64,000 nt of DNA from Selaginella tamariscina (taxonomy: Eukaryota > Streptophyta > Lycopodiopsida > Selaginellales > Selaginellaceae): contig PUQB01000046.1 in the NCBI GenBank assembly GCA_003024785.1, forward strand, positions 784,889 to 848,888, written 5' to 3'. Made by a program: the position numbers and the translations under genes. Every line of letters begins with the position of its first letter. Within the stretch, counting starts at the first letter, position 1. This document shows positions 16,119-50,470 of this stretch, piece after piece. The notes under the pieces are model-generated. The model was not told the origin of the DNA and made no database searches. It saw only the letters and a program-made list of their open reading frames with translations.

Positions 16119-16217
16119 GTTTGATAGTAACTGCTTTCATAGCTCTTCGTTTCCTAGCTACTTTTTTTTCCTTGATTCTTTTCCTTCGTTTTTCTCCTTT
16201 CTTTCTTTCATAAGATC

Positions 16218-17190: not shown

Positions 17191-17239
17191 CCGCGAAGTT
17201 GGACGTAGGTGCAGGCTCCATTGGTGCTGCTCATACCAT

Positions 17240-21181: not shown

Positions 21182-21192
21182 GGAGGAGGTGC

Positions 21193-21792
21193 TGTCACAA
21201 CCTGATACAGGATACAGGATTTCGGATACAGGATACAGGATGCAGGATTTCGGATGCAGGATTTCGGATACAGGATACGGGTTTACAGGATATGCCTGCA
21301 GGATATTCCTACAGGATATACCTATGGATATTCCTATAGGATATGCCTATAGGATATGCTACAGGATATGCCTAGAGGATAAGGGACACTATTCTTAGCT
21401 CATGACTAGATTAGACTCATGACTAGATTAGCTTGGAGTTGTGAGCATAAAAGCTCCGACCTAATTGTTGTACAATCAGTTACTATCAACACCAGTCTTT
21501 CTACGATCATTCTTGTTCTTGTCTTGTTCTTGTCTTGCCTCCTTGCCTCCTGCTCTTGTTTTGTTCCTGTCTTTCCTGGATCCTATCCGGTTCCTGTCTT
21601 GCTCCTGAATCCTATCCTGTTCTTGTCTCGCTCCTGAATCCTGTCCTACTCCTGATTCCTGAGGTCCCAATTCCTATTCTGCTATCTTGCTCCCGGATCC
21701 TATCCTGATCCTGGATCCGTCCTGTTTCTGAGTCAAGCCTTCCTGTCCCTGGAATCCTACTTGCTTCCTGGTTCCTGGATCGTGGCTTGACA
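21193..21792 (+). repeat. 3' LTR of element A
   Basis: Near-identical to the 5' LTR, differing mainly by small indels (600 versus 574 bp). It ends GCTTGACA and is followed by the target duplication CTAGC and then by B's gag. The similarity implies a recent insertion relative to B. Confidence 0.88.
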
Positions 21793-26579: not shown

Positions 26580-27257
26580 TGTCAAGCCACGATCCAGGAA
26601 ATAGGAAGTGAGCAGGATTCCAAGAATAGGAAGGCTTGACTCAGGAGCAGGATAGGAAACAAGACATGAACTAGGAACTCAGGAGTAGGACAAGGAGCAG
26701 GATAGGAACTGGAGCAGGATAGCAGGACAAGGAAGGGAACTGGAGCAGGATAGCAGGACAAGGAGCAGGATAGGAACCGGAGTAGGATAAGGACAAGGAG
26801 CAGGATAGGAACCGGAACAGGATAGCAGAACAGGGAGCAGGATAGGAACTGGAGCAGGATAGCAGGACAAGGAGCAGGATAGGAACCGGAAGCAAAACAA
26901 AGCACAAGGCGAGCAAGACAAGAACAAGACAAGAATAAGGAACAAGAATGATCATAAAATGACTGGTGTTGATAGTAACTGATTGTACAACAATTAGGTC
27001 GGAGCTTTTATGCTCACAACTCCAAGCTAATCTAGTCGTGAGTCTAATCTAGTCATGAGCTAAGAATAGTGTCCCTTATCCCCTAGGCATATCCTGTAGC
27101 ATATCCTATAGGCATATCTTATAGGAATATCCTAGGTTATCCTGGGAATATCTGCAGGCATATCCTGTAACCCGTATCCTGTATCCAAAAACATGCATCC
27201 TATTCCTGTATTCGAATCCTGTATCCTGCATCATGTATCTTGTATCGGGTTGTGACA
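26580..27257 (-). repeat. 3' LTR of element C with 30-40 bp internal tandem repeats
   Basis: 678 bp, TG...CA bounded. About 26680-26890 is a tandem array built on GGAGCAGGATAGCAGGACAA and AGGAACCGGAG. It is longer than the LTRs of A and B because this array is expanded. Confidence 0.85.
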
Positions 27258-27267
27258 GCACCTCCTC

Positions 27268-28780
27268 CCTAAGGACGAGTTCCACGAGTCTTAGGACCTG
27301 GTTTAGCAGGATAAAGCCGATGGAAGGCAGCAACTTTGGAAGAAGCATGGAGTAAGTTGGATGCAGGTTCCCAAGTGCGATCGATAGGCAAATAACCTTT
27401 CCAATCCACCAAGTATTGAAGTTGGCAGCGATGAAGACGAGAAAGGATGGCTGCAACTTCGTACTCAGGTTCACCAACAATGACCACAGGAGGGGAGGAG
27501 AAGAAGCACGACCAGGAAGAGAAGAAGGATGATACAGCTCCAACAAGGAGGTGTGAAACACAGGATGAAGTTTCACCATGGATGGTAACTCGAGTCGGAA
27601 AGCTACAAGATTTACCTCCGCCACGATCCTGTAAGGGCCCAATCGTTGAAAATCCAACTTAGAAGAAGGCCTGTTGGTGCGAATGTGTCGACGAAGAAGC
27701 CACACAAGATCACCAATCTTGTATGCAGGTGCCGGCTGACGGTGAGCATCAGCATGATGCTTGTACCGTTCCTGTGCCTGTTGAAGGTGAACCTGGAGAT
27801 CATCCTGTACCTGCCGAAGATGCTGAAGACGATCCTGTACTGCAGGAGCTGAAGACGATCCTGTACTGCGGGAGCGGAAGGGAGCAGGAGGAGCAAAGTC
27901 AAAACGTGGATGGTGGCCTGTAAGAGCAAAGAAAGGTGTCTGTCCTGTAGATGCGTGAACGGAGTTGTTGTAGGAGAAGATCCAACCAGTTGTCCTGCTG
28001 GTAACTGATGAAGCAAACGAAGAAACTGTTTCCAAGGTCTGAATTGTGCATTCAGACTGCCCATCGGTTGTGGTGATATCCTGAAGAAAGATCCGCTGTA
28101 ACCTATAGACTCCGAAGAAGCTCTCGCCAAAACTTCGACATGAATTGTGGACCTCGATCGGAAACAATGCTCTCAGGAAGACCATGATGTCGGAACACCT
28201 CACGGATCACCAACTCGGCAGTTGTCTGACCTGTAGCTGTCTTGTTGCAGGGTAGGAAATGAGCCTTCTTGGTGAAACGGTCAACCACCACAAGAACTGC
28301 ATCGAATCCACGAGAAGGAGGAAGATCTGTGAGGAAATCCATAGAAATGGATCTCCAAGGAGCAGAAGGAACAGGAAGAGGACAAAGAAGACCAGAAGGT
28401 GCATGACGAGGCATCTTCGACCTGTTGCAGGTGTCACAACTCCGTACAAACCTTTCCACAAAACCTCGCAACCCAGGCCACCAATAGTTGCGAGTCACCA
28501 ACTCAACTGTCTTGGCCACACCGAAATGTCCTGTAGCCGGGGTATCATGATAATCCTGTACCACACGAGTCCTGCAAACACCAACAGGAACGTACAGGAG
28601 ACCTTCCCGGTACAGGAGTCCGTCCTGTATGGCAAACAGCGTGTAGTCTGAACGGGAACTGGAGGAAGAGGAACTTGCAATGTCAGGATGAATGTGTGAG
28701 AAACACATTTTTGCCAAGTCGTCTGTAGCCAACTGCGAACGGATGTCCTATAGGAGTGTTGAATTTGCTGGAGCCTGATG
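27268..28780 (-). pseudogene. Element C: integrase and chromodomain
   Basis: Reads right to left from about 28780: [11 protein letters not shown] linker, zinc-binding [20 protein letters not shown] (about 28540-28480), [15 protein letters not shown], then SDRGPQFMSKFWREL near 28150, then further integrase C-terminal sequence and a chromodomain (YLVDWKGYLP, near 27400). A frame change occurs near 28100. The N-terminal edge at about 28780 is the deletion junction: the Pro/Ser linker of the protease region joins directly to [11 protein letters not shown], which in element A lies about 1.7 kb further on. Confidence 0.82.
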
Positions 28781-28789
28781 AACATGTAG

Positions 28790-30476
28790 TGTTGATGAAT
28801 GGAAAAGAGGTGAAACCTGTCGAGGAGGAACCTTCGGCACTGATACAGGATTGGAAGAACCTTGTACAGGAATCCGCGAACTTACAGGAATGGAGAAAGC
28901 CTGCGGATGTGCTGAGGAACCAGCATGAGGTGGATCAGGAGTGGAGAGAGCCTTCGGATGTGCTGAGGAGCTGACATGAGGTGAATCCTGTCGAGGAGGA
29001 GTCTTCAACACTGATACAGGAACAGGCACAGTCAATCCTGTAGCTTGTACTGCCTCAGATACTAAGGATGTATCCTGCATGCAGGAAGTTACAGGATTGA
29101 TCCTGGCTGCCGGAGAGGAAAACGTGAGCGTCCTAGACCTCCAGTCGATCTGAGGATTTGCAACAAACGAACCATGGCATGCCCAAAATGATGGGAGTCG
29201 ACCGAGTCTTGATCAAGTTGAAGGAAATCAAACAGTTGAATGCGCCATGACTGCAAAAGAGAGGTTTGGTAGCATGGGTAACTGCGCCAGAAGCAATCAC
29301 ACGACCATCGGCCACCTCTACAGGAACTGCACGCTTCAACTTCACCACCGGAATGCCATGTTGAGTTGCAAAAGTGTCATCCATGAAACATGCATTTGCA
29401 CTAGTGTCTAACAAGGCAAACTCCTTGAGCTCTCGATCGTTGAGGCGAATGTGCATAGGAAACTTGAGTGATGAAATGGTATGAGCAACACCAATGGAGC
29501 CTGCACTTACGTCCAACTTTGTGGCTCCTAGACGGAGTGGACATTGAACTTCGGCTTCAACTTCGCACGTCTTGAACTTCTTGGCTTTAGCAGGACATTC
29601 CGCCACCTTGTGTCCTACTTCACCACAAACAAGCATAAGTTCTCACTACTACGGCGTTGCTTTTCCGCAGCTGAAAGTGGACCACGCTTGTATTTCTCAA
29701 CCTCCATAGGAACTACTCCAGAAGGTGGTGCAGGAACATGTACCACAGCTGCAGGATCGGCTTGCAGGAACTGCTGACGGGATTTTTCCCGATGACGCTC
29801 TAACAAACAGTTGTCGCAGCGAACAGCTTGTTGCATGATCTCCGTTAATGTTTGAGCATCCGGTAACGTAAGGAGAAGGTCCTTCACGTCATCCCTCAAC
29901 CCCAAACGGAAGTGTTCAATCAATGCAGTCTCGTCCCATGGAATGTTCGTGCAAAGTTGCTGAAATGCGGATGCATAAACGGAAACTGGTCGGGATCCTT
30001 GTGCGAGCTTCCGTAACTTCGTGCATGCAGAACGGTACTTATCAGGATCTCCAAAACATGCTTCAAAGGCAGCCACGAATCCTTCAAAGTCGTCCATCAA
30101 TGGGTCGTCACGCTCCAGTAAAGGAGTAACCCAAGCTAGTGGAGATCCAACCAGTAAGGATGCCAAAAGGCCAACCTTTTGTGCATCAGTCGAGTAGCGG
30201 CATGGTTGCATGCGGATCAAGAGACGGATTTGATTCAAGAAACCTTGGAAATCGGCACGATTGCCACTGAACTTGTCTGGCATGCTGATCTTTGACTCTG
30301 AAGAAAAGTTCGATGAAAAAGGAACCGATGCCTGAGAGAGAGCCTGCGCAGCAGCCTTAGAGGATGCATCAGCAGCTGCATGTGCCGCATGGGTGGAGCC
30401 TTGCAGATCGGTGACCACTTGGCGCAAAGTGGCCAGCTCATGTGTGCTCACGTTGAATCTGCTCAAAAACGGCCAT
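28790..30476 (-). pseudogene. Element C: gag and protease
   Basis: ATG at 30476. gag stays open to about 29640, the best preserved gag in the window, with SKISMPDKFSGNRADF and FEACFGDPDKYRSACT. A single-base loss inside the zinc knuckle (near 29632) shifts frame; the knuckle then reads VCGEVGHKVAEC. Protease continues with FALLDTSANACF near 29410, where the catalytic motif is DTS rather than the DTG of A and B. A Pro-rich linker follows to the deletion junction near 28785. Confidence 0.8.
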
Positions 30477-30569
30477 GATCTATGAAAGAAAAAAGGAGGA
30501 AAACGAAGGAGAATCAAGAAAAAAAAGTAGCTAGAAATCGGAAAGCTATAAAAGCAGTTACTATCAAAC

Positions 30570-31280
30570 TGTCAAGCCACGATCCAGGAAATAGGAAGTG
30601 AGCAGGATTCCAAGAATAGGAAGGCTTGACTCAGGAGCAGGATAGGAAACAAGACAGGAACTAGGAACTCAGGAGTAGGACAAGGAGCAGGATAGGAACT
30701 GGAGCAGGATAGCAGGACAAGGAGCAGGATAGGAATTGGAGCAGGATAGCAGGACAAGGAGCAGGATAGGAACCGGAGTAGGATAGCAGGATAAGGAGCA
30801 GGATAGGAACCGGAACAAGATAGCAGAACAGGGAGCAGGATAGGAACTTGAGCAGGATAGCAGGAAAAGGAGCAGGATAGGAACCGGAAGCAAACAAGAG
30901 CACAAGGCGAGCAAGACAAGAACAAGACAAGAACAAGGAACAAGAATGATCATAGAATGACTGGTGTTGATAGTAACTGATTGTACAATAATTAGGTCGG
31001 AGCTTTTATGCTCACAACTCCAAGCTAATCTAGTCGTGAGTCTAATCTAGTCGTGAGTCTAATCTAATCGTGAGCTAAGAATAGTGTCCCTTATCCCCTA
31101 GGCATATCCTGTAGCATATCCTATAGGCATATCCTATAGGAATATCCTATAGGTATATCCTGTAGGAATATCCTGCAGGCATATCCTGTAACCCGTATCC
31201 TGTATCCGAAAACCTGCATCCTGTATCCTGTATTCGGAATCCTGTATCCTGCATCTTGTATCTTGTATTGGGTTGTGACA
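30570..31280 (-). repeat. 5' LTR of element C
   Basis: 711 bp, same family and same expanded tandem array (about 30680-30890) as the 3' LTR. It contains the reverse complement of CAGTTACTATCAA at 30967-30979. The flanking target duplication CATGG follows at 31281. Confidence 0.85.
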
Positions 31281-31309
31281 CATGGAATTCATCCTTAGGG
31301 AGGAGGTGC

Positions 31310-31886
31310 TGTCACGACTCGATACAGTATGCAAAATACAAGATACGGGTTATAAGATATGCTTATAGGATATACCTACAGGATATACCTGCAGGATATT
31401 CCTACAGGATATGCCTACAGGATATACCTATAGGATATGCCTGCAGAATATTCCTACAGGATATGCCTGTAGGATATATACTACAGATATGCTTAGAGGA
31501 TAAGGGTCACTATTTTTAGCTCATGACCAGATTAGCTTGAAGTTGTGAGTATAAAAGCTCCGACATAATTGTTGTACAATCAGTTACTATCAACACTAAT
31601 CTTTCTACGATTAATCTTGTCTTGTCTTGCTCCTTGCCTCCTACTCTTGTCTTGTTCCTGGTTCCTAGTTCCCGTCATGCTCTCTGTCCTGTTCCTTGTC
31701 ATGCTTCTGAGTCAAGCTTCTTTATTCTCGGAACCCTGCTCACTTCCTTGTGACTTGATAGTTCTTAATTCTTGTCTTGCTCTTGAGTCAAGCCTCCTTG
31801 CTCTTGGATCGTGCCTTAACGTCTTATTCCTAGTTCTTGTCCTGCTCTTGAGTCAAACCTCCTTGCTCTTGGATCGTGGCTTGACA
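31310..31886 (+). repeat. LTR shared by element B (3') and element D (5')
   Basis: Starts TGTCACGACTCGATA and ends GGCTTGACA. It is preceded by B's polypurine tract and followed by a leader with primer-binding site TTGATAGTAACT (31889-31900), complementary to 31581-31593. Within it the GAGTCAAGCC-TCCTTGCTCTTGGATCG unit is duplicated (about 31775-31880). Confidence 0.82.
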
Positions 31887-33332
31887 GTTTGATAGTAACT
31901 AATTTCTTAACTCCCCGATTTCCAGTTATTTTTTTTTCCTTAGCTTTTCTCCCTTGTTTTCCTCTTTTCTTTCATAGATCATGGCAGATTTTGAGAAATT
32001 TCAACACGGCACATGCAGCTGTTGATGCATCCTCCAAGGCTGTTGCACAAGTTTTCTCTCAAGCATCCGTGGTTTCTTCTCTGTCGAACTCTTATTCAAA
32101 GCCAAAGATTAACATGCTAGAGAAGTTTAGTGGCAATCACGCCAATTTCTAGGGTTTCATGAATCAGATCAGGCTTTTGATTTGCATGCAACCACGTCGC
32201 TACTCGAATGATGCACAAAAGGTTGGCCTTTTGGCATCCTTGGGTTGCCCCTTTGCTGAAGTGTGACGACCCATTGATGGAAGACTTTGAAGGATTCATG
32301 GCTGCCTTTGAAGCCTGCTTTGGAGATTCTGATAAGTACCGTCTATATGCATGAAGTTAAGGAAGCTCACACAAGGTTTTCGACCAGCTTTCGTCTATGC
32401 ATCCGAATTTTAGCAACTTTGCACAAACATTTCATGGGACGAGACTGCATTGATCGAACACTTCTGTTTTGGGTTGAGGGATGACGTGAAGGACCTTCTT
32501 CTTACATTACCGGATGCTCAAACCTTAGCGAAGATCATGCAACATGCCATTCGCTATGACAACCATTTGTTCAAGCGTCGTCAGAAAAAATCCTGTCAGC
32601 AGTTCCTGCAAGCCAATCCTGTAGCTGTAGCACATGTTCCTAAGACACCTTCTAAAGTAGTTCCTATGGAGGTTGACAAATACAAGTGTGGCCCACTTTC
32701 AGCTGCTGAGAAGCAACGTCATCGCAGTGAGAATTTATGTTTATATTGTGGTGAAGCAGGTCACAAGGTGGCAAAATGTCTTATTAAAGCCAGGAAGTTC
32801 AAAACGCATGAAGTTGAAGCTGAAGTTCAATCGGAAAACTTCATTGTCCACTTCGTCTAGGAGCCGCAAAGTTGGACGTAGGTGCAAGCTTCATTGGTGT
32901 TGCTCACACCATTTCATCACTCAAGTTTTCTGTACACATTTGCCTAAATAATTGAGAGCTCAAGGAGTTTGCCCTGTTAGACACTGGTGCAAATGCATGC
33001 TTCATATGACACTTTTGCAACTCATTATGGCATTCCGGTGGTGAAGTTGAAGAGTGTAGTTCTTGTAGAGGTTGCAGATGGTCGTCTAATTACTTCTGGC
33101 GTAGTTACCCATGTTACCACACTTTTCTCTTACACTCATGGCGCATTCAACTGTTCGATTTTCTTCAACTTGATCAAGACTCGAACGACTCTTATCATTT
33201 TGGGCATGCCATGGTTCGTGGTTGCAAATCCTCAGATTGATTGGAGGTCCAGGACCAGGATTAATTTTGTACCTTCCTGCGTGCAAGATATAACTTTAGT
33301 GTCTGAGGCAGCACAAGCTATTACTGAACCCG
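31887..33332 (+). pseudogene. Element D: truncated gag-protease of the same chromovirus family
   Basis: ATG at 31981 (MADFEKFQH) then a deletion joins directly to the Ala-rich region. Capsid-like pieces (INMLEKFSGNHANF; FEACFGDSDKYR) and a CCHC knuckle (CLYCGEAGHKVAKC, near 32735) are present. The protease motif LLDTGANAC is near 32975. Stops and shifts lie near 32153, 32345, 32860 and 33004. The sequence ends abruptly at about 33332, where it meets unrelated sequence. No 3' LTR is present. Confidence 0.8.
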
Positions 33333-33336
33333 ATAT

Positions 33337-33938
33337 TGAATCTTGACATAAGTCAAAAACTCAAAGGACATTGTCACGTTTTCAATCATGTGTTACCCCA
33401 ATTTCATACACCTTAAAGAAAAAGAAAAATTTCAATAATGTGTAAACTTAGCATATCATATAATCCACTTCATAAGACTTAGTTTGTAAGCCAGAACAGC
33501 CATGTCTTATGGAAGTATATGGTAAAGTAATCTAGCATACAACTTGGAAGTTGCCATCCAAGTGCTACCTTTAACATTGGAGTCCATAACCTACACCCAC
33601 TTACCAAGCAAATGTTCTTTGAAAAGTTATAGATCTTAGGATCCACTCTCCATGCAAAATTCAGATGTTAACCAAAAGTGATAAAGTACTTTAAGAATTT
33701 AAAACTAACTAAACTTTAAAACACACTACACTTTAGGCAATCCTACTGACCACAGAGAATACGCTCCGATACCAATTGTCACAACCTTTCCCTCTTCCCT
33801 TATGCTAACTAGGCAAAGGGCCAATTGGTGTTTATAAGAGGCCCCTAGTCGTGATAACCCAAGTCTGCTTGAGTCTTTTGCCCACATATCCTACAATCTT
33901 TACCCAGGTAGTCAACCCACTAAGTTAAAACTATGACA
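33337..33938 (-). mobile_element. Partial short-LTR retroelement (TRIM/LARD-like): leader, PBS and LTR
   Basis: 33777-33938 is a 162-bp LTR-like block (TGTCACAACC...CTATGACA). Adjacent at 33763-33774 is the reverse complement of TGGTATCGGAGC, a one-mismatch version of the initiator-tRNA-Met primer-binding site. About 33337-33750 is a noncoding leader that recurs inverted at 60200-60640. The same LTR recurs at 63433-63603. The element is cut where it meets chromovirus D. Confidence 0.65.
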
Positions 33939-34239
33939 GTTGTCGTATGGAAACATATGTAGTGATAAGCTCCTAACGTCATATGATTCAATCCAATAAG
34001 AGAGCAGGCTCTTTCAATGGACGACTTGCACTTAAGGTTAGTATATTTTTCGCACAGTCTCTCTTAAATATAAATGTAAACTATATAATAAAGCTATACT
34101 TAATATATGGAATCCCTATATGCCTAGTTGTAACTGTCTACACATAACATGTAAAACACATGTTATATGCATTTTATAAATTATATACATTAAAAAATCC
34201 ATTAAAATGTATAAACTTTAACATTGTTCTTGTAGGAGT

Positions 34240-37689: not shown

Positions 37690-38790
37690 TGCATACTGAC
37701 ACACATATGTCAGTCTGTACACATAGCACATACAGTCGTCTAAATGAAATTTTTGATATCACCACTATATGCATCTTATCACACATAGAGGTTATGTATA
37801 CAAAGTTTGACTAGAAATTAAATTTGATATGAAATTTTTATTTATAATGCAAGTAAAATAGCACTCTGTATATACATAAACTGCCCTGTAATATAAATAT
37901 GTATATGAATTACGCTTTCCGTAGATTAACAAAAAACAAAAAATTTACACACGTCGGGTGTACGGGTATGGCCTCTATCCTCACGACGCTCGTCCATGTC
38001 TTGCATCATTATATTGTCTATCTCAACAACCTTCTCTCGAAGCACTTTATGGATAGGAGGGAGACACAGATAGTTGACGACGATGGTGCGATCTACGTAG
38101 CTAAAGGCGCTAGAAAGTGATTTGAGTATGGACATATGCGCTAGAAAGTGATTTGAGTATGGACATATAGATTCTCCACTGGTTAAGAAACTCGTTCAAG
38201 AAGGACACACCTTCCTTCTCCTCGAGTGCAGGAATAACCTGTTTAATTCACATAAGTTAGAAATGTACACACACGTGTATGTACCTTTGACTTGATGTAT
38301 TCTTCATATATTAGCTTGTAGTGCTCATACAGCAGCCACTTATGCAAATTATTATTACAACACAAATCGTAGATGTTGCTGGGATTAGAAGACAGGTTGG
38401 TTAACCGAATGCAACATAACACACACAAAAAGAGTTCAATACGTGTAGAACATCATGCGATCGTGATAAGTGAATTCCTTAGCAGAGTCACTCTCGAGCA
38501 AGTTTATCAGCTTGGTGATATCCTATGATGGCCCATCCTCCTCAAATTCTAACAGCTCACTTTCACTTGACATGATCAAGATTTAAGGCTTTTGATACTG
38601 GAAGGGAAATGGATCACCAATAAAACAAAACCAAATCTTCAAGTTATGGTGTTGTGTGTGCGAGAGAAAGATATTTAGTGCACTAATACCCACCTCAAGA
38701 AATCGCAGAGCCGCTCTAATCGTATAAGCTTCATTTATATCCTACCGGGCCCCACGCGTTGAGCCTAGACACGTGAGAATTACAAGTTAT
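37690..38790 (-). pseudogene. Cullin N-terminal fragment, copy 2
   Basis: Minus strand from ATG 38573 to about 37926. It has ESELLEFEE, then damage in the DITKL region, HDRMMFYT, YNLCCNNNLHKWLLYEHYK and EEYIKSK, then VIPALEEKEGVSF and WRIYMSILKSLSSAFSYV. About 38103-38165 a 32-base stretch is tandemly repeated (two copies of the GCGCTAGAAAGTGATTTGAG block), and exon 4 and the intron before it are lost so that exon 3 joins exon 5. A deletion in exon 1 also breaks the frame. Same origin as copy 1. Confidence 0.7.
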
Positions 38791-39590: not shown

Positions 39591-40029
39591 GTTCCCATGA
39601 ACATTACTTCGATCTCGTGGCCTTAGTTCAGCAGCGTTATCATCACTATTGAACTACATACTTCCAGGTATCTTTGTGTGTGTGAAGGCGTATTTTGATT
39701 CAATAGATATCTCTGCTCAACACACACACACACATATATATGCCACGTTGGTAACGAGAAACACTAAGATGCACAATAGGCCGCAACAAAGACAACGAAA
39801 GCAGGAACTTTCACACTCATCACATATTACATGTGTTCATCACATATCACATGTGAAAATGGAAGGAGTTGTGGCTACCGAGGAAGATCTCATACACCAT
39901 CATAATGCAGCAAGACATTCTTCTCTGCCAACCTTGTCTGCCATGTAGCTTTGCTAACAGGGCATATAAGGACCAGTTGAGTTAGTTTCTAAATCCTTCA
40001 TGTTACTTGTAAGCATAGCAGACATACAG
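39590..40029 (+). repeat. Left half of dispersed repeat R2, interrupted by the MULE
   Basis: Parallel to R1 (36950-37310): GAACATTACTTCGATCTCGTGG, CACA tract, GATGCACAATAGGCCGC, CATCATAATGCAGCAAGACATTC (shared in parts), GTTGAGTTAGTTTCTAAATCC. It ends with GACATACAG at 40021-40029, the left target-site duplication. The repeat resumes at 48644. Confidence 0.7.
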
Positions 40030-40211
40030 GGTCTCGGCGAAAAGGAGGCTCCGGCTCAGGAGGCTTCATATTATTCTAGTATATTCGCGGATATTCTAGG
40101 GTTATTCTAGCATATTCTAGCATATTCTCAAGAATATTCTAGAATATATAAGTTTTTTTAATATGCCGACTGGTTTAATATACGCCGACTGGCTTAATAT
40201 ATGCCCACTGG
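40030..40211. repeat. MULE left terminus: TIR, TATTCTAG cluster and GCCGACTGG repeats
   Basis: TIR at 40030-40064. 40066-40150 holds six or more ATATTCTAG/GAATATTC units. 40165-40173, 40184-40192 and 40203-40211 are GCCGACTGG, GCCGACTGG and GCCCACTGG at 19-base spacing, each followed by a TTAATA block. Confidence 0.85.
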
Positions 40212-40244
40212 CTTAATAAGACATTATCCTAAACCCTAAACCAT

Positions 40245-43200
40245 TTATCCTTGTAGCACCGGTGGGTCATGAACTCTGTTGCAATTCACCAGCAAACGGT
40301 GGACCTCCATGTCACTGAGCGATCGCCTTTGTAGAAAATATGTGACTTCCGGGTTCAAGCCAAGCACACGGCTATAGACGAAGTACATGTGTACACATGG
40401 GCTCCAACTTTTGCTCTTCTGAAATGTAGAACAACTGCATGAAGGATAAGTATTAATAGTCACCTTTGCAGAGTCATTTCCTGCCGACACAACGAAAGCC
40501 TCCTTCCGTCCTCTAGCTGTCACTTCAACATTTCGCACACAACCTAAAAACGTCTTGGCCTTGCGGAAATTCTTCTCTTGTTCCTTAGACATTTTTGTTG
40601 GAGTCCGAACCATACGTCCTTCGAAAGGTGGAATTGTTGTAGATCCAGCTCCACGTGGTGGCGATGGTGTTTTGTCCTTCTGACCCTCATCTACTCTTCC
40701 TGCCATCCCCTGTAAACCTTCCAGAACAAAGCCTGCATCCTGTAGTTCTCTGACCTCCTCACTTGTCAGCTTCGTTTCCTTGAGCACAGGCCAAACCGTT
40801 GGTGGTGTTGGAATACGTGACCGAAGAATTTTGCCGTTTGGCCGCGTGAAACACCCTGAATCTTTTGGGCAGAACCACATCATCTGTTGTACATACTCCT
40901 CATTCCCCAAGGCATCAATGTACATTCGTTTTCCATAGAATCCTGGTGCTGGCACTCTGCTTGGATAACCGATTGGTTTTCCACACAGAGCAGTTCCTTC
41001 CTGATTCATCCCCAAACACTTAACCTTACTGAATGCTCCGATTCGTCTGATGGCCCACTCTGTTTGAGCAATCTCTCTCTCCGAAACCTCTTCGAACCTT
41101 AACCTCTTTCTCCTGTTGTTTTGGACCACCCGCTCTGTGTACTCTACATCATGTCTGTGTGAACGTCGAGCATCAGACTGTTCTGTTCCTGTGACTGTTC
41201 TCCTAACAGTTTGCACTCGAACGTTAGTGGTACACGTGAACTCCGGGCTGGTCAAGTGTTCCTCGCCTTCCACCAGATTAATAATTGTTGATGGAGATAC
41301 ACTTTTCCCCTCAGAGAGTTTGCGTTGCACTCGTTTCAACAGAGTTTCCTTCGAAGGCCCTGACCCTGTATACCTCCCTTCTATTGCCGCTTTCACCTTC
41401 GCACTCTGCATAACTGCATCGGTGAGGTCTAACATTGTCGCCTCCAGCAGTGGTACTCTTTTGGCCAATCTTGCTCTTCTTGCTCTAGCGTGAATCACTT
41501 CAGCATTGTTTGTAGTTGGAACGCTCGCGAGTCCTTCTTCTGTCATGTCTCCCAGTTCCGCCATGGAGATGTGGTCCTCATGCCTGATCCACCAAGACAG
41601 CCATGTCTTCAAAGCTCGAATGTTTGACGCTCGTCCTTCCCAGAAAGACTCGAGAATTGCCAGTTGTTCTTTCTTAGATTGTTCATTCAGTGCTGCAGGC
41701 CAGGCACGAGCAAGCTTCATGTGTTCTTCGCGATGTTCTTCTGCGATCCATTTCTTTGTCACCTGACGCACGGATTGCATAAAGTGAAACAGACAGCTTC
41801 TTTCCCTCCCTTTCATCTTTGCTCCGTTGTTGAATACTTGGCGCAAGGCTATCCATATCGCTCCAGCCTCATCCGACATGAAACCAGCAAAGTTGACATT
41901 CTCCAAACCCTGCTTCTTACAAACCTCTAGCATTGTGTTCAAGAACTTCAGCACTGCAACATTATCTTCGCGGCACATATCTGCGTAAGCTATAGTCACC
42001 ATGGATCTGACACTGCAAGAGAGCGTTAGATAACGAAGATTAGAAAGTGTTATGAAGAGTTTTACAACTTACAATGGGTCATAAAGGTGTATTCCAATTG
42101 TCGCCCAGTCTGGTATGCGGTGCGTGTGGTCCAGAACAACCCATTGATCATGAAGGTCTCCTCCACTTTGACACCTTCTGATGTACTCAACTCCTGAACC
42201 CGGTCCCTCAACTGTCATTTTGAAGATCAGAGGCTGCTCCTCAGCACCATGCAGTTCCATCCCTGGAACATGTATGACGTGAATGAAAGGTATTGGCAGC
42301 TTTGTCTTCAGCTCCAGAAGACCCTCGTAACCCTCTCTAAAGTGTGTCTCCTTCTGTCTTGATTGTGTAATCCAGTCCCGAGTCCTAAAGAAAAGGTCAC
42401 GTCAGTGTGTAGAGATCTAAAAAAAATACCTTCGATGGTTTGTTAGAGGTTCAAGTTTTGAGAGTAAACCAGTGTACGAGACTTCTCCTTCTTCCTTGAA
42501 AAGTTCTTCAAAGATGAGCTCACGCGCGGCTTGAAACTCAATCACTCGTTGATTGGTTCGCGGACTGCTCTTTACCACGTTGCTGACACTAGATCTGGCT
42601 CGCTGAACGTTTGAAGCTGACACTGAGGGGCTGACTGGATGCTGATGAACACCTCTGTGAATGAACAACCTTGTAAAAGAAATGTCGTCTGGCAGAATGT
42701 AGTACACATAAGCCGGACAAGTGTGCACCAGCAATGGCTCCTCTCCACAATGCTTACATTTTATGCCTATTACTTTGCCTGTCTCAGTTGTCTTTGCCTT
42801 CTCCACAGCACCCTTGAAGTGACATTCATTTGCTTTCTTCTCAAAAGCCAAGTAGGGGCAAGTAGGATTGATGCATTGGAGATGTCCGACACATGAACTT
42901 CGACTGACTCGCGCCGGAACATGCCAGTGTGTTGTGCTCGGGTGTGTCCAATGGTAGCAGCCATCCTTGCGATTCATCCCCGAGTACTTCTCTGTGCTTT
43001 CTGTCTTAGGGGGAAGTTCGAAAATGACATTTCCATTGTATATCTGCGGTAGTTCAGAGACTCGTTTAACTTCAGACGAACCAATGAGATCCTTCCCTAT
43101 CCTACATTTGTCTGCTCTTAGAAGACACACCAGCATGGATTCCTCACGCTCCTCTGTCCGCAACCTGAACAACGGGCCCTTTGCCGGGCACAATGTGTAA

Positions 43201-43409
43201 AAGACAAACTGGTTTGATGCATTGCCTTCTGGTAACAACTCCACATCTTCTCCAGAACTCGCAGAAACTGACATCAATTGAACCACATGTATACTGAACC
43301 AACAAGGAATGTTGAAAGCAATGTGAAGATCATGTTCAAACACAAAAGCATTTCCATCTTCATCGACTGGGAAATCTTTGTCAATGCCTTCATAGGTAAC
43401 TCTGGCCAT
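40245..43409 (-). CDS. MULE transposase (three exons, about 1,019 aa)
   Basis: Exons 43409-42430, 42384-42073 and 42012-40245; the introns of 45 and 60 bp have GT-AG ends, and the phases join without a stop (3,060 coding bases including the stop). The N-terminal third is unrecognised but has Cys/His clusters (CVGHLQCINPTCPYLAF; CKHCGEEPLLVHTC) suggesting zinc binding to DNA. The catalytic region follows: VVLDHTHRIPDWA (first Asp, end of exon 2), FAGFMSDEAGA (second Asp) and CLFHFMQSV (the C..H of MULE transposases), with a helical segment after it. The C-terminus has a SWIM finger, CSCSTFQKSKSWSPCVHMY. It would bind the terminal repeats and catalyse cut-and-paste transposition. The protein looks undamaged. 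The stop lies about 200 bp from the left end. Confidence 0.88.
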
Positions 43410-43955
43410 GACAACACAAGGAGAAAGCTCGGTGGTTTAGGAAAGCAAAGCAAAAGATTAAACACACTTTCTCTTACCAAAAAAAATTACAATCGTTAAC
43501 AATAAACGTGAATACACGTTTGTATATAATTAATTCTATGCTGCCCAGTTCACAGTGTTCTTAATGATGTCCTCTCTAGTATCACCGATTTAATTTAATT
43601 TCTACCTTTTATGATTTGAAATATCTTCACATTTACCAATTATTCACATATTTTAAAATAAACCCTAAATATTAATGTCACATTTATTCCGTAGGGTTCA
43701 CTGTTTTCATTGCGGCTAGGGTTTTTTGGTAGATAGGGTTTACTGTTTCCATTGCGGCTAGGGTTCTTTCAATCTCAGATCTGTTTCCACTGCGGTAGAT
43801 CCAGAGGGTTTCTTTAATCTCAGATCTCAGAGTTACGGTTTCCACTGCGGCGCCATCCATTTCGACTCGATTCGTGCAGCGCCCAAGTATAACAATGGAG
43901 ATTTCTGTGCCGATTTAGATTCTCGGCACCATCCTGCTCAGCCGGCGGCCACAAG
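43410..43955. promoter_or_regulatory. Divergent promoter region of the MULE with repeated GGGTTTACTG/ATTGCGGC units
   Basis: Between the transposase start and the first array unit, the block (GGGTTYACTGTTTYCATTGCGGC) recurs near 43695 and 43737, followed by TCCACTGCGG near 43785 and 43840. AAACCCTA-type telo-boxes (forward near 43661; reversed as TAGGGTTT near 43720, 43735 and 43761) are frequent, as in plant 5' regions. 43920-43955 is a first, diverged array unit ending CACAAG|GTATG. Confidence 0.5.
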
Positions 43956-45142
43956 GTATGTGTAATTTCTGTATTTTATGATTTGCTGCTCAAAGTATTT
44001 CTTTTTCCAGAGATATAGGGTCTTCTTATTTGTGCCGACTGAGAGCAACGGCACCATCCTGGTTCAGTCGGCAAACACAAGGTATCGTCGATTTATTTAT
44101 TTTTTTCCTTGCGGCTCAAGTATACGTGTCACAATGTTTTTTTTTCAGAGTTAATGGGTCTTTCCATTTGTGCCGACTGAGAGTGACGGCACCATCCTGG
44201 TTCAGTCGGCAAAAACAAGGTATTTTCGATTTGTTTTTTTTTGCTTTCTGGCTCAAGTATTCGTATCACAAGGTTTTTATTTTCAGAGTTAATGGGTCTT
44301 CCCATTTGTGCCGACTGAGAGTGACGGCACCATCCTAGTTCAGTCGGCAGCCACAAGGTATGTTCGATATATTTATTTTTTGCTTTCTGGCTCAAGTATT
44401 CGTATCACAATGTTTTTTTTTCAGAGTTAATGGTCTTCCATTTGTGCCGACTGAGAGTGACGGCACCATCCTTTCAGTCGGCAGCCACAAGGTATTTCGA
44501 TATATTTTTATTTTTTGCTTTCTGGCTCAAGTATTCGTATCACAATGTTTTTTTTTCAGAGTTAATGTGTTTCCCATTTGTGCCGACTGAGAGTGACGGC
44601 ACCATCCTTTCAGTCGGCAGCCACAAGGTATGTTGAATATTATTTATTTTTGCTTTCTGGATCATGTATTCGTATCACATTGTTTTTTTTCAGAGTTAAT
44701 GTGTCTTCTCATTTGTGCCGACTGAGAGTGACGGCACCATCCTTCTTCAGTCGGCAGCCACAAGGTATTTTGAATTTGTTTAATTTTGCTCTGCGGCTCA
44801 AGTATCCGTATAACAATGTTTTTTTTCAGAGTTATAGTGTCTTCCCATTTGTGCCGACTGAGAGTGACGGCACCATCCTTCTTCAGTCGGCAGCCACAAG
44901 GTATTTTGAATTAGTTTTTTTTTTCTTTGCGTCTCAAGTATTTCTTTTAAAACAGTTAATGGGTCTTCCCATTTGTGCCGTCTGAGAGGGACGGCACCAT
45001 CCTATCTCAGTCGGCACCATTATCTCTTCTGTGCCGTCTGACAGAGTCGGCACAAACTATCTCAGTCGGCAGGTTTTTTCTTCTACATCTCTCTGCCGAC
45101 TGAGAGGGTCGGCAGCATCTAGCTTGAGTCGGCAGCCACAAG
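43920..45142 (+). repeat. Tandem exon-intron-like array (about eight ~136-bp units)
   Basis: Exon-like parts: 44011-44081, 44149-44219, 44287-44357, 44425-44491, 44560-44627, 44694-44764, 44830-44900 and 44956-45142, plus a diverged unit ending at 43955. Each starts after a polypyrimidine tract and CAG, has the form AGTTAATGGGTCTTCCC..., carries GTGCCGACTGAGAGTGACGG and TCAGTCGGCAGCC, and ends CACAAG before GTAT. The ~65-base spacers all begin GTAT and end in (T)nCAG. The last unit is extended with three more GCCGACTGA palindrome copies. TGCCGACTGA and TCAGTCGGCA pair as 10-bp arms around a ~20-base loop. The array leads by a final intron (45143-45210) to the ATG at 45221, so it reads as a repeated 5' UTR. 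Confidence 0.85.
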
Positions 45143-45220
45143 GTTAGTCATCTTTGTTTGTTTTTTTTATTTTGACTCCTCATCAATTGACTTGTGTGTT
45201 TACTTTCCAGAGTTCCCAAA

Positions 45221-48200
45221 ATGGTGAGAGCTTCAAAACGTCTACTAGAGACTGCGCCTGATGAAGAGCCACGGGAAGAGAAGAGGATATCGAAGCAGAA
45301 GCGAGGCAAGAGAGGAGAACCATCTAATGTACCAAAGGAGGATCCTCCAGTGACTCAGTCTGGAGTAGTAGCAGTTGAGCAAGAACAGCCTCCACCAACA
45401 ATCACAGATTTCCCGGAGAGCTCGTCGCAGTTGCCTCCTTCATCCGCTGAGGTTGCAGTCCTGAACGAGCAAGTGCAGATGACAGAGGCAGCTGAAGCTA
45501 GCGAGGACGACTTGGAGGAGGCAGTCAGCAAAAAGAGAGGCCGCGGGAAAGCTGATTCAAAAGGCAAGAAGAAGGCGAAGAGCGATAAGGAGCCGAAGGA
45601 AGGAGTTATACAGCATACCGGCGAGCCTGCATTTGGAGAGCTCAGCAAACCTGCTCGACAAAATTACTATCAAGGGACTTGGTGATCCTCCTGATGTGCC
45701 CATCTGCAGAATACATTCCAACGAGGTGGTTCGACGAGTGAACCCAGGGGACTTGGACAGGCTGGTGTCATCGTTGAAGAAGGCTGGTTATCTACGCAAC
45801 ACGGCCATGTTCATTCTGTCCATCGGAGATCGACTCACTGCTGAGGAGCTATCGGAGCTGTCGAAGGACACGATTCAGTACGAGCAGCACCGGTCTTTCG
45901 AGCAAGCTCTTACTCAGCCGGAGTACAAACAGTGGGCTTCAAGGCTCTCAAACAGGAAGTTTAGCTGTTGGGACGGGAACCATAGGCTACAGGCTTTGCA
46001 GAAGCTGTACCGAGAGGATGCAGAGGACAACCAGCGATGGGCTATTCGTTCGATCGAGTTTCATCTCCACGGAGAACCTCGACATTCTTCAATTGGTTTC
46101 GATGTTCCAATCGATTAACATGTGAGTATTTTCTTTTCTTTTTGTTAAGAGTTTAGACTTACAGTTTTTGAACAGATCTTCAGCAACATCTGTGGAAACA
46201 ACGCTACCACATATTCTCCTCGCTGTAAAGGCGGTCTGCACTAGTACAGAAGGAACTCAGAAAATCCTCGAGTCACTCACGGAGGTTGATCGTCTTGAGG
46301 TGCGGAAGTGGAAGGAGAGTTCATCAGGAAAGACGGCTTGGCATCCTCTTCCGAACCTGATCTGCGCAAAGTCTTTTCAAGGTAACCCTCCGATTTAATT
46401 TATAGGAAAGAAATTTTTAACTTGTTCTATGTGCAGAACGAGATCGACGATGATCTCGACAAGAGCAGTCACCAGTGCTAAGGGCAATCCACAGGTTGAG
46501 GTGAACCTGAAGCAGCTAGTATACAAGAAGCATGACAAGCGTATGCACAAGTTCCTCTCCATCATAGACCCAGACTTGGGGGAGGAGTGGTTCCAGAAGG
46601 TGACAAACATCTCTCATAAGCAGTGTCGCTGGATGGGCATTGAGAAGCTGTATGCGATGTCAAGGGCGAAGATTCCAAACATGCTGCGACTCCGATACCT
46701 CAACAAGCTCACCCGTCTCGAATCCAAGGCAGAACAACAGACACTTGGGCTACCGGGCATGCAGGACAAAGAGTGGATCAAGTGGTTCACCTTGGACTTA
46801 TATTGGAAGGCTGTGCGCGAGGAAGCCATTCAGATCCTTAAGGGGTTGCGAGAGGATGGTGAAGAAGTTGGAACGGATGTCGACTTCATGAGCTGGTTTG
46901 ACGAGATGAGAATTCGGAGCAAGTGCCTGGTCTTTCAGCCCTTCCATGACTGCATACGGTTCACTTATTCGATGGAGCCGAATGAGTTTCTGGAGCGTGA
47001 GGAATCTGCGCGTCGGATGATATGGAGGTAAGCTTTCAATCCAGCATTGCTACTGTCTGACTTTGTGTTGCAGGTTCATACTGGCGAAGCAAATGACACC
47101 GTCCCATACGATGAAGCTGTGGACAGATCATACAAGCGAGCCTCACATGTGGTCGAAGAGCAGAGGAGCTCTAACACCGTTCGAACGGGAGCATGTTCCA
47201 TTCTGGCTCGACTGTCCGTCGCAACAGCCACCAGCTTGGGAGAGCACACTATTCGACATGCACGCCAATGATCTACCAGCGATTGTTTGGGAGCCAGAAG
47301 AAGTAGAGGCTATCAAGAAGAGCAAGATGAAGAAGACGGTGCGGAAGACAACTACACCTGCAAAGGGATCGGGAGCGGGACCAAGCTCTTCTACAGCACC
47401 TCCGCCAGCATTCGACTTTACAATCAATGAGGTACAGCCACTTGTAGCTAGTTTGGACATCAAGGACGACCTGATGACCTTCATCCCGACCCTGGCTGCA
47501 TCCCGTGGATCCTACGACCTAGCTGTGTGCGACATGGAGGAGATGAGCAGGTCTTTCTTCGAGCCAGGTGCTTCCCAGACAGAGGTGTACACCAAGCTCC
47601 GAGAACAGGTTGACAGACTACATACGGTTGAGTCACAAACGTTGTTCCAGGAAGTGGTAGGTGAATACGGCTTCAACCTCATCATCCTCGACTTGCCCAA
47701 TGAGCTTGTATATGGAGGTGCTAGCATCAACAAGGACATTGTGCAGCTAGATCCGGTGAAGTTTGAGGAGGCCTTGCAGTTCAGTGGAATGCACTTGGCA
47801 GCGAGTGGTTTCATGGTCGTCTTCGCGAGTTCTCCTTCTGTTTCGGCGGTGATTCAGGCGGCTGCAGTAATCAACTTGGAGGTTGCAGGGACTTACAGCG
47901 TCTACCGTGCACGAGGCTGGGGATACCGTGACAAAATTAAGGTAAGCTAGCTATTCAAGTTCAAGTTTAACTTGGTCTATGTGGCAGGATAACTTGTTAG
48001 TTCTCTTGGTGCTGCAAAGCTCTGAGAAGAAGTCGAAGAGGCCAAACCCTCTGGCGTTGACGAACACGATCCTCGTCGACACTGCCGACCGTTATCAGGA
48101 GGCTTGGTAAGGAAGTGCTTTGCTATGTTTATCCTAATGGAAGATTGTGCAGGATTATGATTCAACCGAAGAGTGTTCGACTCATGCAGCTTTTGATCGA

Positions 48201-48399
48201 GCGTCTCAGTAGACCTGGCGACCTAGTCTGGGATATTGGTTCCGGAACCGGGTCATCATTGTTAGCTGCCGTCGAGCTCGGAAGGAATATTATAGGAACC
48301 GAGAAGAGTTTCGAACTCTCTAGGTTGGCAACAAACAAGCTTGCAGAGAACATTAGACCAGAAGATTACCTACTCAAACACCTCCACGTCCAAGCGTAA
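45221..48399 (+). CDS. ParB-like domain / beta-class DNA amino-methyltransferase fusion carried by the MULE
   Basis: Exons 45221-46121, 46165-46381, 46437-47027, 47074-47941, 47988-48106 and 48153-48399; introns of 43-55 bp. Residues 1-150 are Lys/Glu-rich and disordered. A ParB/sulfiredoxin-like domain follows (ICRIHSNEVVRRVNPGDLD ... FSCWDGNHRLQALQKLY, exon 1). Exons 2-4 hold an unrecognised helical region. Exon 4 then has NLIILDLPNELVYG, in the place of the DPPY motif, and a strand-helix region. Exon 6 has IQPKSVRLMQLLIERLSRPG and LVWDIGSGTGSSLLAAVELG, then RNIIGTE: the motif X/I/II order of beta-class N6-adenine/N4-cytosine methyltransferases (Pfam N6_N4_Mtase). ParB-methylase fusions are known in phages and bacteria. 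Lesions in this copy: frame change at about 45,600-45,690, TAA at 46116, and a frame mismatch at the exon 2/3 join. Confidence 0.8.
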
Positions 48400-48531
48400 C
48401 TGGTGGTTCGAGAACTGCAGCTTTACTTAAGATGAAGAAGAAACTTTAGCTAATGTATATTGAGTAATAAATTAAGCTAATATAAAAAAAATTAAAAAGA
48501 AATACAACAGTTTTAATAGAATTCTTTTTTG

Positions 48532-48643
48532 CCGACTGAGGCCAATACTGCCGACCAGAAAGAATATTCCAAAATATTCTAGAATATTCTTGAATATTCG
48601 AGCCCAGGCCTCCTGGGCCCCAAGCCTCCAAATGGCGACACTC
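48532..48643. repeat. MULE right terminus: GCCGAC motifs, AATATTC cluster and TIR
   Basis: GCCGACTGAGG at about 48532 and GCCGACCAG at about 48551 mirror the left-end GCCGACTGG set. 48559-48600 holds four GAATATTC/AATATTCTAG units. TIR is at 48608-48643, with CAGGCCTCCTGGGCCCC giving a small palindrome. Confidence 0.85.
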
Positions 48644-49260
48644 GACATACAGCAACTGGAAACAGTTAAAATTACAGATTGTTCTCTTTACCCGAACGAT
48701 GCGGCTCTTGGCATTGTCTGGGCACCGGATGGTCGGTGGGTCTCATGGGTTTAGAAACCGATGCATTCCTCTTCAATTCAAGACTCCGAAGCTCTCTTGT
48801 GGGCGATTGTCATACTGAGAGCTACATTGACGTGTCCCTCGCTCTTGGATATGGATTTCTTGACACAGTTGGAGGGGAATCGACGCTCATGTCTTTCAGT
48901 GTGCTTTTTGTTGATCCTATTTTACGTTGTTCTCTCAGTTACATTACATATAGTATTAAAGCAACTCACGAGACGTCCCATTAGAAGTGTTCGCTCTTAT
49001 ACACATTGTGAGTTGTTTGATGTGTTATGTCATGTGTCTGCAGAGTATGGGTAGCTCTGCGTCTGCCTCTGTTGCGGGTGGTTCAAAACGATCTTGGCTT
49101 AAAAATAATTTAAGTCCTAACAAATCTTTTGTTTATCAATCCATAAGTGTTTTGCATAAAGACACGCACATATGTCCGGCAATTTTGATATCACCAATCA
49201 AAATCTCTCTCACAGGTTACTGTATGCAAAGATTGACCCAGAAATAATATTTGATATCCA
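48644..49260 (+). repeat. Right half of dispersed repeat R2 with captured coding pieces
   Basis: Starts with the right target duplication GACATACAG, then CAACTGGAAACAGTTAAA as in R1 (37314-37331). 48715-48900 parallels 37373-37510 (GGCTCTTGGCATTG, AAACCGATGCAT, GAGAGCTACATTGACG). 49020-49120 looks like a splice acceptor followed by a start (MGSSASASVAGGSKRSW), probably another captured gene piece. No complete gene. Confidence 0.6.
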
Positions 49261-49359: not shown

Positions 49360-50470
49360 TAAACGTGCATATATTAACAAAAACGCAAAAGTGCACATGC
49401 GGGTGTACGATGGCCTCTATTGTCATCGTGCTCATCGTGCTCATCCATATCTTGCATCATTATATTGTTTATCTCAATAACCTTCTCCCGAAGCACTTCG
49501 TCAACTTCTTCACACTGAAACAAAAACTTACCAATATGATTTTATTATAAACTGACCAATTTATGAAATTACCATCATCGCACCATCGACCTTGCTCTTT
49601 AACCCGTCATACACCTAAGCGATTGATTGATACATAGTCAATTCTGCACACACATACGCACCACTCACACACACACACAGTAGTACTCACCATGTCTTTA
49701 AATTGCATGATTCCCACTTTATGGACAGGAGGTAGACGCAGACACTTAACTAGGCTGCGATCTAGATAGTTAAAGGCACTAGAGAGTGAATTGACTATTA
49801 ACATATAGATTCTCCACTGGTTGAGAAACTCGTTCAAGAAGGACACACCTTCCTTCTCCTCGAGTGCAGGAATAACCTGTTTAATTCACATAAGTTATCA
49901 ATGTACACCCACATGTATGTACCTTCGACTTGGTGTATTCTTCATATATTTGCTTATAGTGCTCATACAGTAGGTGCTTAATCACCATTCTTCATGCACA
50001 ATGTATAGACGTTGCTGAAATTAGAAGACAGGTTGGTTAACTGAATGCAACATAACACACATGCGCACGCACACACACAAAAGAGTTCAGTACGTGTAGA
50101 GCATAATGCGCTCGTGAAAAGTGAATTCCTTAGCAGAATCAGTCTCGAGCAAGTTTATCAGCTTGGTGATATCCTTTTGTATGATGGCCCATCCCTCCTC
50201 AAATTCTAGCAGCTCACTTTCCCTTTGACATGATCAAGATTTAAGGCTTTTGAAACTGAAAGGGAAATGGATCACGAGTAAAACAAAACCAAATCTTCAA
50301 AGTTATGGTGTTGTGTGTGTGTTAGTGTGTGATAGAGAGAGATTTAGTGCACAAATACCCACCTCTAGGAATTGCAGAGCTGCTCTAATTGTAGGACCGC
50401 TGAAACCTAGGGTTCTAAGCTTCATTTATATCCTACAGGACCCACGCGTTCACGTGAGATATCAAAGTAT
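49360..50470 (-). pseudogene. Cullin N-terminal fragment, copy 3
   Basis: Minus strand from ATG 50231 to about 49373, with the same five-exon structure as copy 1. An extra base just after the ATG (CATGTCAAAGGG) puts a stop at codon 6. Downstream exons still read EGWAIIQKDITKLI, EKEGVSFLNEFLNQWRIYML and SSAFNYL, then VGIMQFKDM. The upstream flank (50320-50470) contains CCTCTAGGAATTGCAGAG and CACGCGTTCACGTGAG, as in copies 1 and 5. Confidence 0.72.

Follow-up and report, generated by a model that had tools for sequence, protein, structure and literature searches.

The DNA analysed here is a 64,000-nucleotide stretch of the Selaginella tamariscina genome (contig PUQB01000046.1, positions 784,889 to 848,888; hereafter the window), which contains an 8.6-kb, high-copy Mutator-type DNA transposon with two genes. 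A sequence-only reading of the window had placed the element between short duplications, and the target-site duplication GACATACAG indeed flanks it on both sides, at 40021-40029 on the left and 48644-48652 on the right. The whole element (40030-48643), which belongs to what we call family A, begins with GG(G)TCTCGGCG, ends with GGCGACACTC and has degenerate terminal inverted repeats (TIRs) of about 37 bp. Its transposase gene lies on the minus strand (40245-43409), consists of three exons (43409-42430, 42384-42073 and 42012-40245), encodes 1019 amino acids and is uninterrupted in the window copy. The second gene, hereafter the partner gene, runs divergently on the plus strand (45222-48449) with six exons (45222-46121, 46176-46381, 46437-47027, 47074-47941, 47988-48106 and 48153-48449). 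Between the two genes stands an array of 17 GCCGACTG/CAGTCGGC motifs (44034-45102).

We searched 300.7 Mb of genome in 1391 contigs. With the DNA of 45221-48399 as the query, 40 of 880 candidates were scored; they were 99-100% identical and lay on 37 contigs. We took 20 family A copies (L009-L028) with their flanks, picked by best similarity to the partner gene. All 20 held the whole element with both genes, in 8.3-8.7 kb, and their termini were GGGTCTCGGCG and GGCGACACTC. Junctions were scored in 19 of these copies (L026 was not among them): at least 8 bp were common to both sides in 15, exactly 9 bp in 10, and four (L018, L020, L024 and L027) had no match. Seven other loci (L030, L031 and L128-L132) were older, diverged A copies, and L030 and L031 had fewer motif copies. 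The family A element seems to have been amplified more than once. Four contigs (C335, C14, C269 and C505) carried chlorophyll a/b-binding genes together with the partner gene family, which indicates that the copies reside in the host's own genome and that this host is a plant or alga capable of photosynthesis.

The partner gene starts with the ATG at 45222, and the stop codon of intact copies corresponds to window positions 48447-48449, not 48399. Intact copies have six exons separated by introns of 56, 54, 46, 46 and 46 bp, as expected from the earlier proposal of a gene with introns. The gene was uninterrupted in 14 of the 20 fetched copies, encoding 992 amino acids in 13 and 995 in L022. 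The window copy is not intact: indels between 45566 and 46461 and at 48365 shift its frame, and compared with the majority of the 20 copies it has several frameshifting indels and one substitution. These frameshifts are possibly assembly errors, because indels outnumber substitutions in the transposase of many copies too. Both the window gene (45222-48449) and L009-L028 had many 1-bp indels and comparatively few substitutions, as in long-read assembly errors, so the counts of intact and broken genes in this assembly should not be over-read. The transposase was at full length in 2 of the 20 copies, as against 14 with an intact partner gene. An explanation by a need in cis, with the partner gene kept and the transposase lost, was rejected: the contrast is one of ascertainment, since the copies had been picked by partner-gene similarity and the indels were mostly of the 1-bp, assembly-error-like kind. 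Both signatures described earlier were found in the gene, DGNHRLQA at 45972-45995 and LVWDIGSGTGSSLLAAVELG preceded by QPKSVRLMQLLIERLSRPG, at a distance of about 670 residues (residues 249 and 921) instead of the 500 or so that had been estimated.

A Pfam scan of the 992-amino-acid protein (E up to 1) returned a single family, N6_N4_Mtase (PF01555), at residues 898-953. The match to the whole protein had an E value of 1.1e-8 and 35.8 bits, over the cut-off of 26.7, and the last-exon open reading frame (ORF) reached 1.1e-9. The matching segment (48153-48363, plus strand) contains the conserved S-adenosylmethionine-binding motifs X, I (DIGSGTG, 48232-48252) and II (GTE). Motif IV was placed at DLPN (47690-47701, plus strand) by aligning FNLIILDLPN with five phage methylases, which have DLPY (two), DPPY (two) and DVPY (one) at this position. 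With DLPN at residue 771 and DIGSGTG at residue 921, the order in the partner protein, as aligned with the five phage enzymes, is IV, X, I, II, which defines the beta class and is also the order in the DNA adenine methyltransferases of solved structure MboIIA, CcrM and DpnA. The methyltransferase domain assigned in the sequence-only reading is supported. In hhalign, the match to the five phage methylases scored 97.7% with an E value of 1.8e-12 over 63 columns, and this profile-profile match spans X-I-II only. A PDB search with a profile of family A and a second family, B, described below, found MboIIA (2.5e-4), CcrM (8.4e-4) and DpnA (1.1e-3), with weak matches to RsrI (0.41) and an N4-cytosine methyltransferase (0.67) ranking after unrelated S-adenosylmethionine methyltransferases (ribosomal L11, 0.03; arginine, 0.09); the PHROG DNA methyltransferase match was 3.8e-11. 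MboIIA, CcrM and DpnA share the X-I-II segment and the motif order with the partner protein, whereas significant similarity is limited to about 60 residues and motif IV is not canonical here. In place of the anticipated (D/N/S)PP(Y/F/W), or a variant ending in an aromatic residue, both families have DLPN, as did all five older A copies checked. Since motif IV ends in Asn in A and B but in Tyr in the five phage enzymes compared, a plain marking enzyme is a weakened explanation. We regard the partner protein as methyltransferase-like and do not class it as an active enzyme, its catalysis being doubtful on the evidence of the motif.

The segment of the partner gene that contains CWDGNHRLQALQKLY (45600-46043, plus strand; DGNHRLQA at 45972-45995) resembles ParB/DGQHR proteins, with its fold unconfirmed. 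The ParB domain that had been proposed from the DGNHR signature has so far no support beyond that signature: family, structure-sequence and profile searches gave no confirmation. PF02195 had no match anywhere in the genome, while 11 of 14 control genomes did match. An hhalign comparison with six ParB proteins was out of register, and pairwise shuffle tests were mixed, with 2 of 12 pairs above all 300 shuffles. A prokaryotic origin is plausible for the methyltransferase domain, but searches of phage records, viral contigs and prokaryote genomes, which were pattern-based or local and non-exhaustive, brought up no relative of the whole protein. In the phage records listed, 20 of 150, the similarity was confined to the C-terminal methyltransferase part, and the viral contigs, searched with two short peptide patterns each, yielded no relative. 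In prokaryote genomes the pattern RPGDLVWD gave 130 confirmed stretches, of which 80 were kept and three of those translated. One of the three (L109) reads as a cobalamin-type CbiT/CobL methyltransferase, and the parts seen of the other two fit the same description. None of the three is taken as an orthologue, because they had been picked by the pattern itself.

For membership of the Mutator-like elements (MULEs), we considered the duplications, the ends and the transposase. Target-site duplications of about 9 bp were found in family A and also in family B (locus L029, with TTTGTAAGA twice). TIRs, which are absent in non-TIR MULEs, were found by end-to-end alignment: the 40-base ends of A, and likewise those of B, align mutually above 1000 of 1000 shuffles each, with many mismatches and small gaps. 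A stringent local aligner gave only short matches there. Reading the transposase by eye, we recognised a Zn-ribbon-like N-terminus, the DDE-like motifs LDHTH...FMSDE...CLFH...TTNNAE (D-x-T-H, F-x-SDE, C-x2-H, TTNN-x-E) and a SWIM-like CxC...CxH at the C-terminus; many MULEs have a SWIM zinc finger, and the matches to it here had E values of 0.011 and 0.04, below the Pfam cut-off. In a genome search with PF10551 (Pfam MULE; 150 of 158 candidates scored), no match fell inside the window, and other MULEs of the genome were found. Membership rests on the duplications, the ends and the motifs read by eye, and the transposase appears to lie beyond the reach of PF10551. That search also turned up a further MULE family with 16 equal-score matches (C102, C158, C169 and 13 other places; PF10551 8e-25), whose frames are up to 673 amino acids long.

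The search of the genome with PF01555 (150 of 739 candidates scored) gave 150 of 150 matches over the cut-off, in at least two groups of last-exon frames of about 129 and 106 amino acids. Family B, of which one locus (L029) was read whole, is a 7952-bp element with the duplication TTTGTAAGA and the same divergent gene pair as A. The transposases of A and B are identical at 655 of 1015 positions and the partner proteins at 547 of 983 (56%). A gene model of B, built with A as the guide, has readable GT-AG introns at positions equivalent to those of all five A introns. Between the two partner genes the proportion of synonymous differences (pS) is 0.84, which is saturated, and the proportion of nonsynonymous differences (pN) is 0.30, which points to a long separation during which selection acted on the protein. 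Among the parts compared, X-I-II (residues 896-960) is conserved best, with 74% identity, and DLPN is kept. Odd PF01555 matches were considered as possible further families, and the five checked were older A copies. On these comparisons, the partner gene is a selected and regular part of these transposons. The claim that a MULE-type element carries a methyltransferase-domain gene is accordingly upheld in 20 of 20 A copies and in family B, with the protein conserved and synonymous sites saturated; the outcome that would have spoken against it, homologues always apart from MULE transposases, was not seen in families A and B.

The non-coding DNA of both families is rich in one motif. The non-coding DNA of A (2271 bp) has 20 copies of GCCGACTG and that of B (1480 bp) has 19, whereas 300 dinucleotide shuffles per family gave 0.04 copies on average and never more than 2 (A) or 1 (B). 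Within the gene spans, introns included, GCCGACTG was absent from both A (6346 bp) and B (6472 bp), and the 55.4 kb of window outside the element had two copies. The top shared 8-mers of A and B non-coding DNA were AGTCGGCA/TGCCGACT (21 and 19) followed by CAGTCGGC/GCCGACTG (20 and 19), which overlap; in 100 shuffle pairs, no 8-mer was common to both more than five times. Both families retain TGCCGACT(G) in each of their three non-coding parts, with dense arrays between the two genes. In the flanks of the 20 A copies we found one TGCCGACT in 29.1 kb (L011, inside a stretch matching another element end), and three other MULE loci had none in 4.1 kb. A 2-kb locus of the further MULE family (L045) also lacked TGCCGACT. 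Apart from the motifs and the ends, the blastn matches listed between A and B non-coding DNA were short and weak only.

The motif is arranged differently in the two families. Of the 20 copies in A, 14 are paired face to face (TGCCGACTGA...TCAGTCGGCA), which makes seven pairs, in units of 135-138 bp. Of the 19 in B, 18 are paired back to back (CAGTCGGC-2 bp-GCCGACTG), which makes nine pairs, and eight of these lie in 39-40-bp units. The number of GCCGACTG copies per A element ranged from 15 to 22 (20 of 20 copies). Outside the central array, the window element has two copies near its left end (40165-40191) and one near its right end (48531-48538, plus strand), whose flanks resemble those of the right-end copy of B; near the left end of B there is a one-base variant. 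A second motif, GAATATTC, forms palindromes and is found within the elements near the ends only (4 in A and 5 in B, the latter at L029 1239-1277 and 9047-9076). At the left end of the window element it is the subterminal GAATATTCTAGAA (40132-40144), with heat-shock-element-like spacing, and three more lie at the right end (48562-48599). These palindromes, some with heat-shock-element spacing, are possible sites for heat-shock factors or the transposase. Intron-like GT...AG junctions, spaced about 60-70 bp, delimit the array units (window 43960-45220), so that small exons in tandem repetition may make up the 5' untranslated region of the partner gene. The array of family B (L029), just before the ATG, has an acceptor-like site on one side and a donor-like site on the other.

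Our comparisons with published systems draw on parts of the text of the cited papers. The VANDAL elements of Arabidopsis with their VANC proteins (PMC5735166, PMC13317346, PMC10398659) resemble the present element in being MULEs with a transposase and an accessory gene, and in having a short motif in variable tandem repeats of their non-coding parts. VANC proteins act through motifs in these repeats (PMC5735166, PMC10398659), and motif arrays in non-coding DNA were likewise found in A and B. The VANDAL motifs are YAGTATTAY, AGTTGTCC or AGTTGTAC, whereas here the motif is TGCCGACTG; VANDAL motifs stand in the same orientation at high density, and here they form inverted pairs; VANDALs are described as non-TIR, unlike this element with its degenerate TIRs. 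The VANDAL literature, in the portions available, does not mention a methyltransferase domain in VANC. MuDR/mudrB and other two-gene MULEs (PMC6446971) also have a second gene beside the transposase and duplications of about 9 bp, but the available text, which has neither 'methyltransferase' nor 'ParB', speaks of no second gene of the methyltransferase type; both words are likewise missing from the accessible part of a gene-capture review (PMC13317346). The bdelloid rotifer N4CMT (PMC8885841) is similarly an amino-methyltransferase of N6_N4_MTase type that a eukaryote obtained from bacteria and that is linked to transposons; it is a host gene that marks transposons and has a chromodomain and SPPY, whereas the partner gene belongs to the transposon itself and its motif IV is DLPN. 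Bacterial ParB-methylase fusions and phage polyvalent proteins (PMC5512222) offer a possible likeness, with ParB-like and adenine-methylase parts in mobile DNA, in contrast to the introns, the 400-residue middle region and the unconfirmed ParB segment here, and no sequence relative was found. In our full-text searches, exclusive of subscription papers and preprints, no paper was found that combined ParB with transposon, MULE or Selaginella, and no title among the matches listed described a MULE with methyltransferase-type cargo, which is weak evidence of absence.

We tentatively propose, with a probability of roughly 40%, that the partner protein is a methyltransferase-derived self-recognition or anti-silencing factor of the two-gene MULE-type family A and its sister family B. 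The protein would bind, as a dimer, the inverted TGCCGACTG pairs and in this way recognise its own element family. Binding would keep the promoter region of the element open or unmethylated, as VANC does for VANDAL, with a protein apparently of different make. The methyltransferase domain would bind S-adenosylmethionine and DNA but catalyse weakly or not at all, since motif IV has Asn in place of the aromatic residue that stacks against the base. That the protein may bind its own DNA or block silencing had been suggested from the sequence, and the GCCGACTG arrays lend this indirect support. A bolder version, which we find rather unlikely, is that the transposon turned a prokaryote-type amino-methyltransferase into a device of self/non-self recognition, which would read parS-like inverted TGCCGACTG arrays and write, or shield by occupancy, a private chromatin or DNA mark (N6-methyladenine [6mA], N4-methylcytosine [4mC] or absence of 5-methylcytosine), exempting the element from silencing. 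Several observations weigh against the self-recognition proposal. A scan of the transposase protein gave no match to Pfam MULE (PF10551), and its comparison with three other MULEs of the genome, by thin profiles and by pairwise tests, gave nothing significant. No ParB match to the partner protein was obtained in Pfam, PHROGs, NCBIfam or PDB, and its X-I-II segment also weakly matches CbiT (0.0014), the ribosomal L11 methyltransferase (0.03) and an arginine methyltransferase (0.09). The inverted pairs could also stem from a single pair in each family that was multiplied by tandem duplication. GCCGAC, which lies within the motif, is the core of plant drought elements, and the binder of TGCCGACTG could be the transposase or a host factor instead of the partner protein.

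For the motif, the host-factor reading is the main rival: TGCCGACTG would serve drought factors (DREB/CBF) and GAATATTC heat-shock factors, making the element stress-inducible, and the partner protein would do something else, such as MURB-like help in transposition. GCCGAC is a core of the dehydration-responsive element/C-repeat (DRE/CRT), the arrays occupy the expected promoter region between the divergent genes, and triples of the GAAnnTTCnnGAA type are present at both A ends and at the left end of B. Yet ACCGAC, the other form of the DRE core, occurs 0 times in A and once in B; TGCCGACTG and its flanks account for 19 of the 26 RCCGAC sites in A and 17 of the 24 in B; the conserved motif is longer than the core; and some copies are close to the two ends, at a distance from the promoter. 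The inverted pairing is left unexplained, since DREB binds as a monomer, and the heat-shock part is weak, given 7 occurrences of GAATATTC and 3 of the triple in the 55.4 kb of window outside the element. We consider this reading improbable as a whole. Binding of TGCCGACTG by the element's own transposase, for transposition or self-repression, with the partner as an unrelated accessory, would account for the motif copies near both ends and is compatible with the conservation of the transposase between families (655/1015). It sits poorly with the 17 of 20 A copies in mid-element (44034-45102), more than 3.5 kb from either end, and the second motif, GAATATTC, end-only within both elements, is the better candidate for such a site; this makes transposase binding of TGCCGACTG distinctly improbable.

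In another reading, the partner protein would be enzymatically active, with DLPN as a functional variant of motif IV, and would mark the arrays of its own element by N6-adenine or N4-cytosine methylation. The 74% identity of residues 896-960 between families, the retained Asp and Pro of motif IV, the presence of DLPY in two of the five phage enzymes, the DLPN of all five older A copies and the A and C targets within GCCGACTG are in keeping with activity. The Asn that ends motif IV in both families, where five of five phage enzymes compared have Tyr, points the other way, as does the bdelloid N4CMT, in which replacing Ser and Tyr of SPPY together (APPA) abolished activity (PMC8885841). On balance, an active enzyme seems unlikely to us. 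Contamination of the contig by a fungus, an oomycete or a bacterium is barely conceivable: introns of about 50 bp are usual in fungi as well, but the 40 matches listed are spread over 37 contigs of a 300-Mb assembly, and C335, C14, C269 and C505 have chlorophyll a/b-binding genes alongside the partner gene family. MULEs often capture host gene fragments (PMC6446971), and the gene could on that ground be an inert, Pack-MULE-like passenger. That all 20 A copies and the diverged B have the gene over its full length, with 56% amino acid identity between the families despite saturated synonymous sites, makes this very improbable; the selection signal between the families largely refutes it.

Elsewhere in the window, fragments of Ty3/gypsy-type retrotransposons, nested or neighbouring, occupy 15800-34000 (gag, protease, reverse transcriptase, integrase and a chromodomain-like end, in ORFs read by eye). 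Two mutually similar minus-strand ORFs (37926-38195 and 49607-49885; AFNYLDR-like and LPPVHKVG-like) lie near both sides of the element and are reminiscent of N-terminal cullin fragments. At 7385-8731 there are two adjacent plus-strand ORFs of 151 and 257 amino acids, the second with CxxC pairs, perhaps from another transposon.

Accessory genes are one route by which DNA transposons counter silencing, and few kinds are understood, VANC foremost. If the self-recognition reading is true, the partner protein and its arrays would form a recognition system convergent with VANC and unlike any MULE accessory gene that we found described. It would be a second, apparently unrelated motif-array solution, which would mean that sequence-specific self-recognition evolves repeatedly. 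The conserved DLPN makes the choice between an active mark and a dead scaffold directly testable, and a beta-class domain in a plant transposon would offer a defined site at which to look for 6mA or 4mC, a contested topic in plants.

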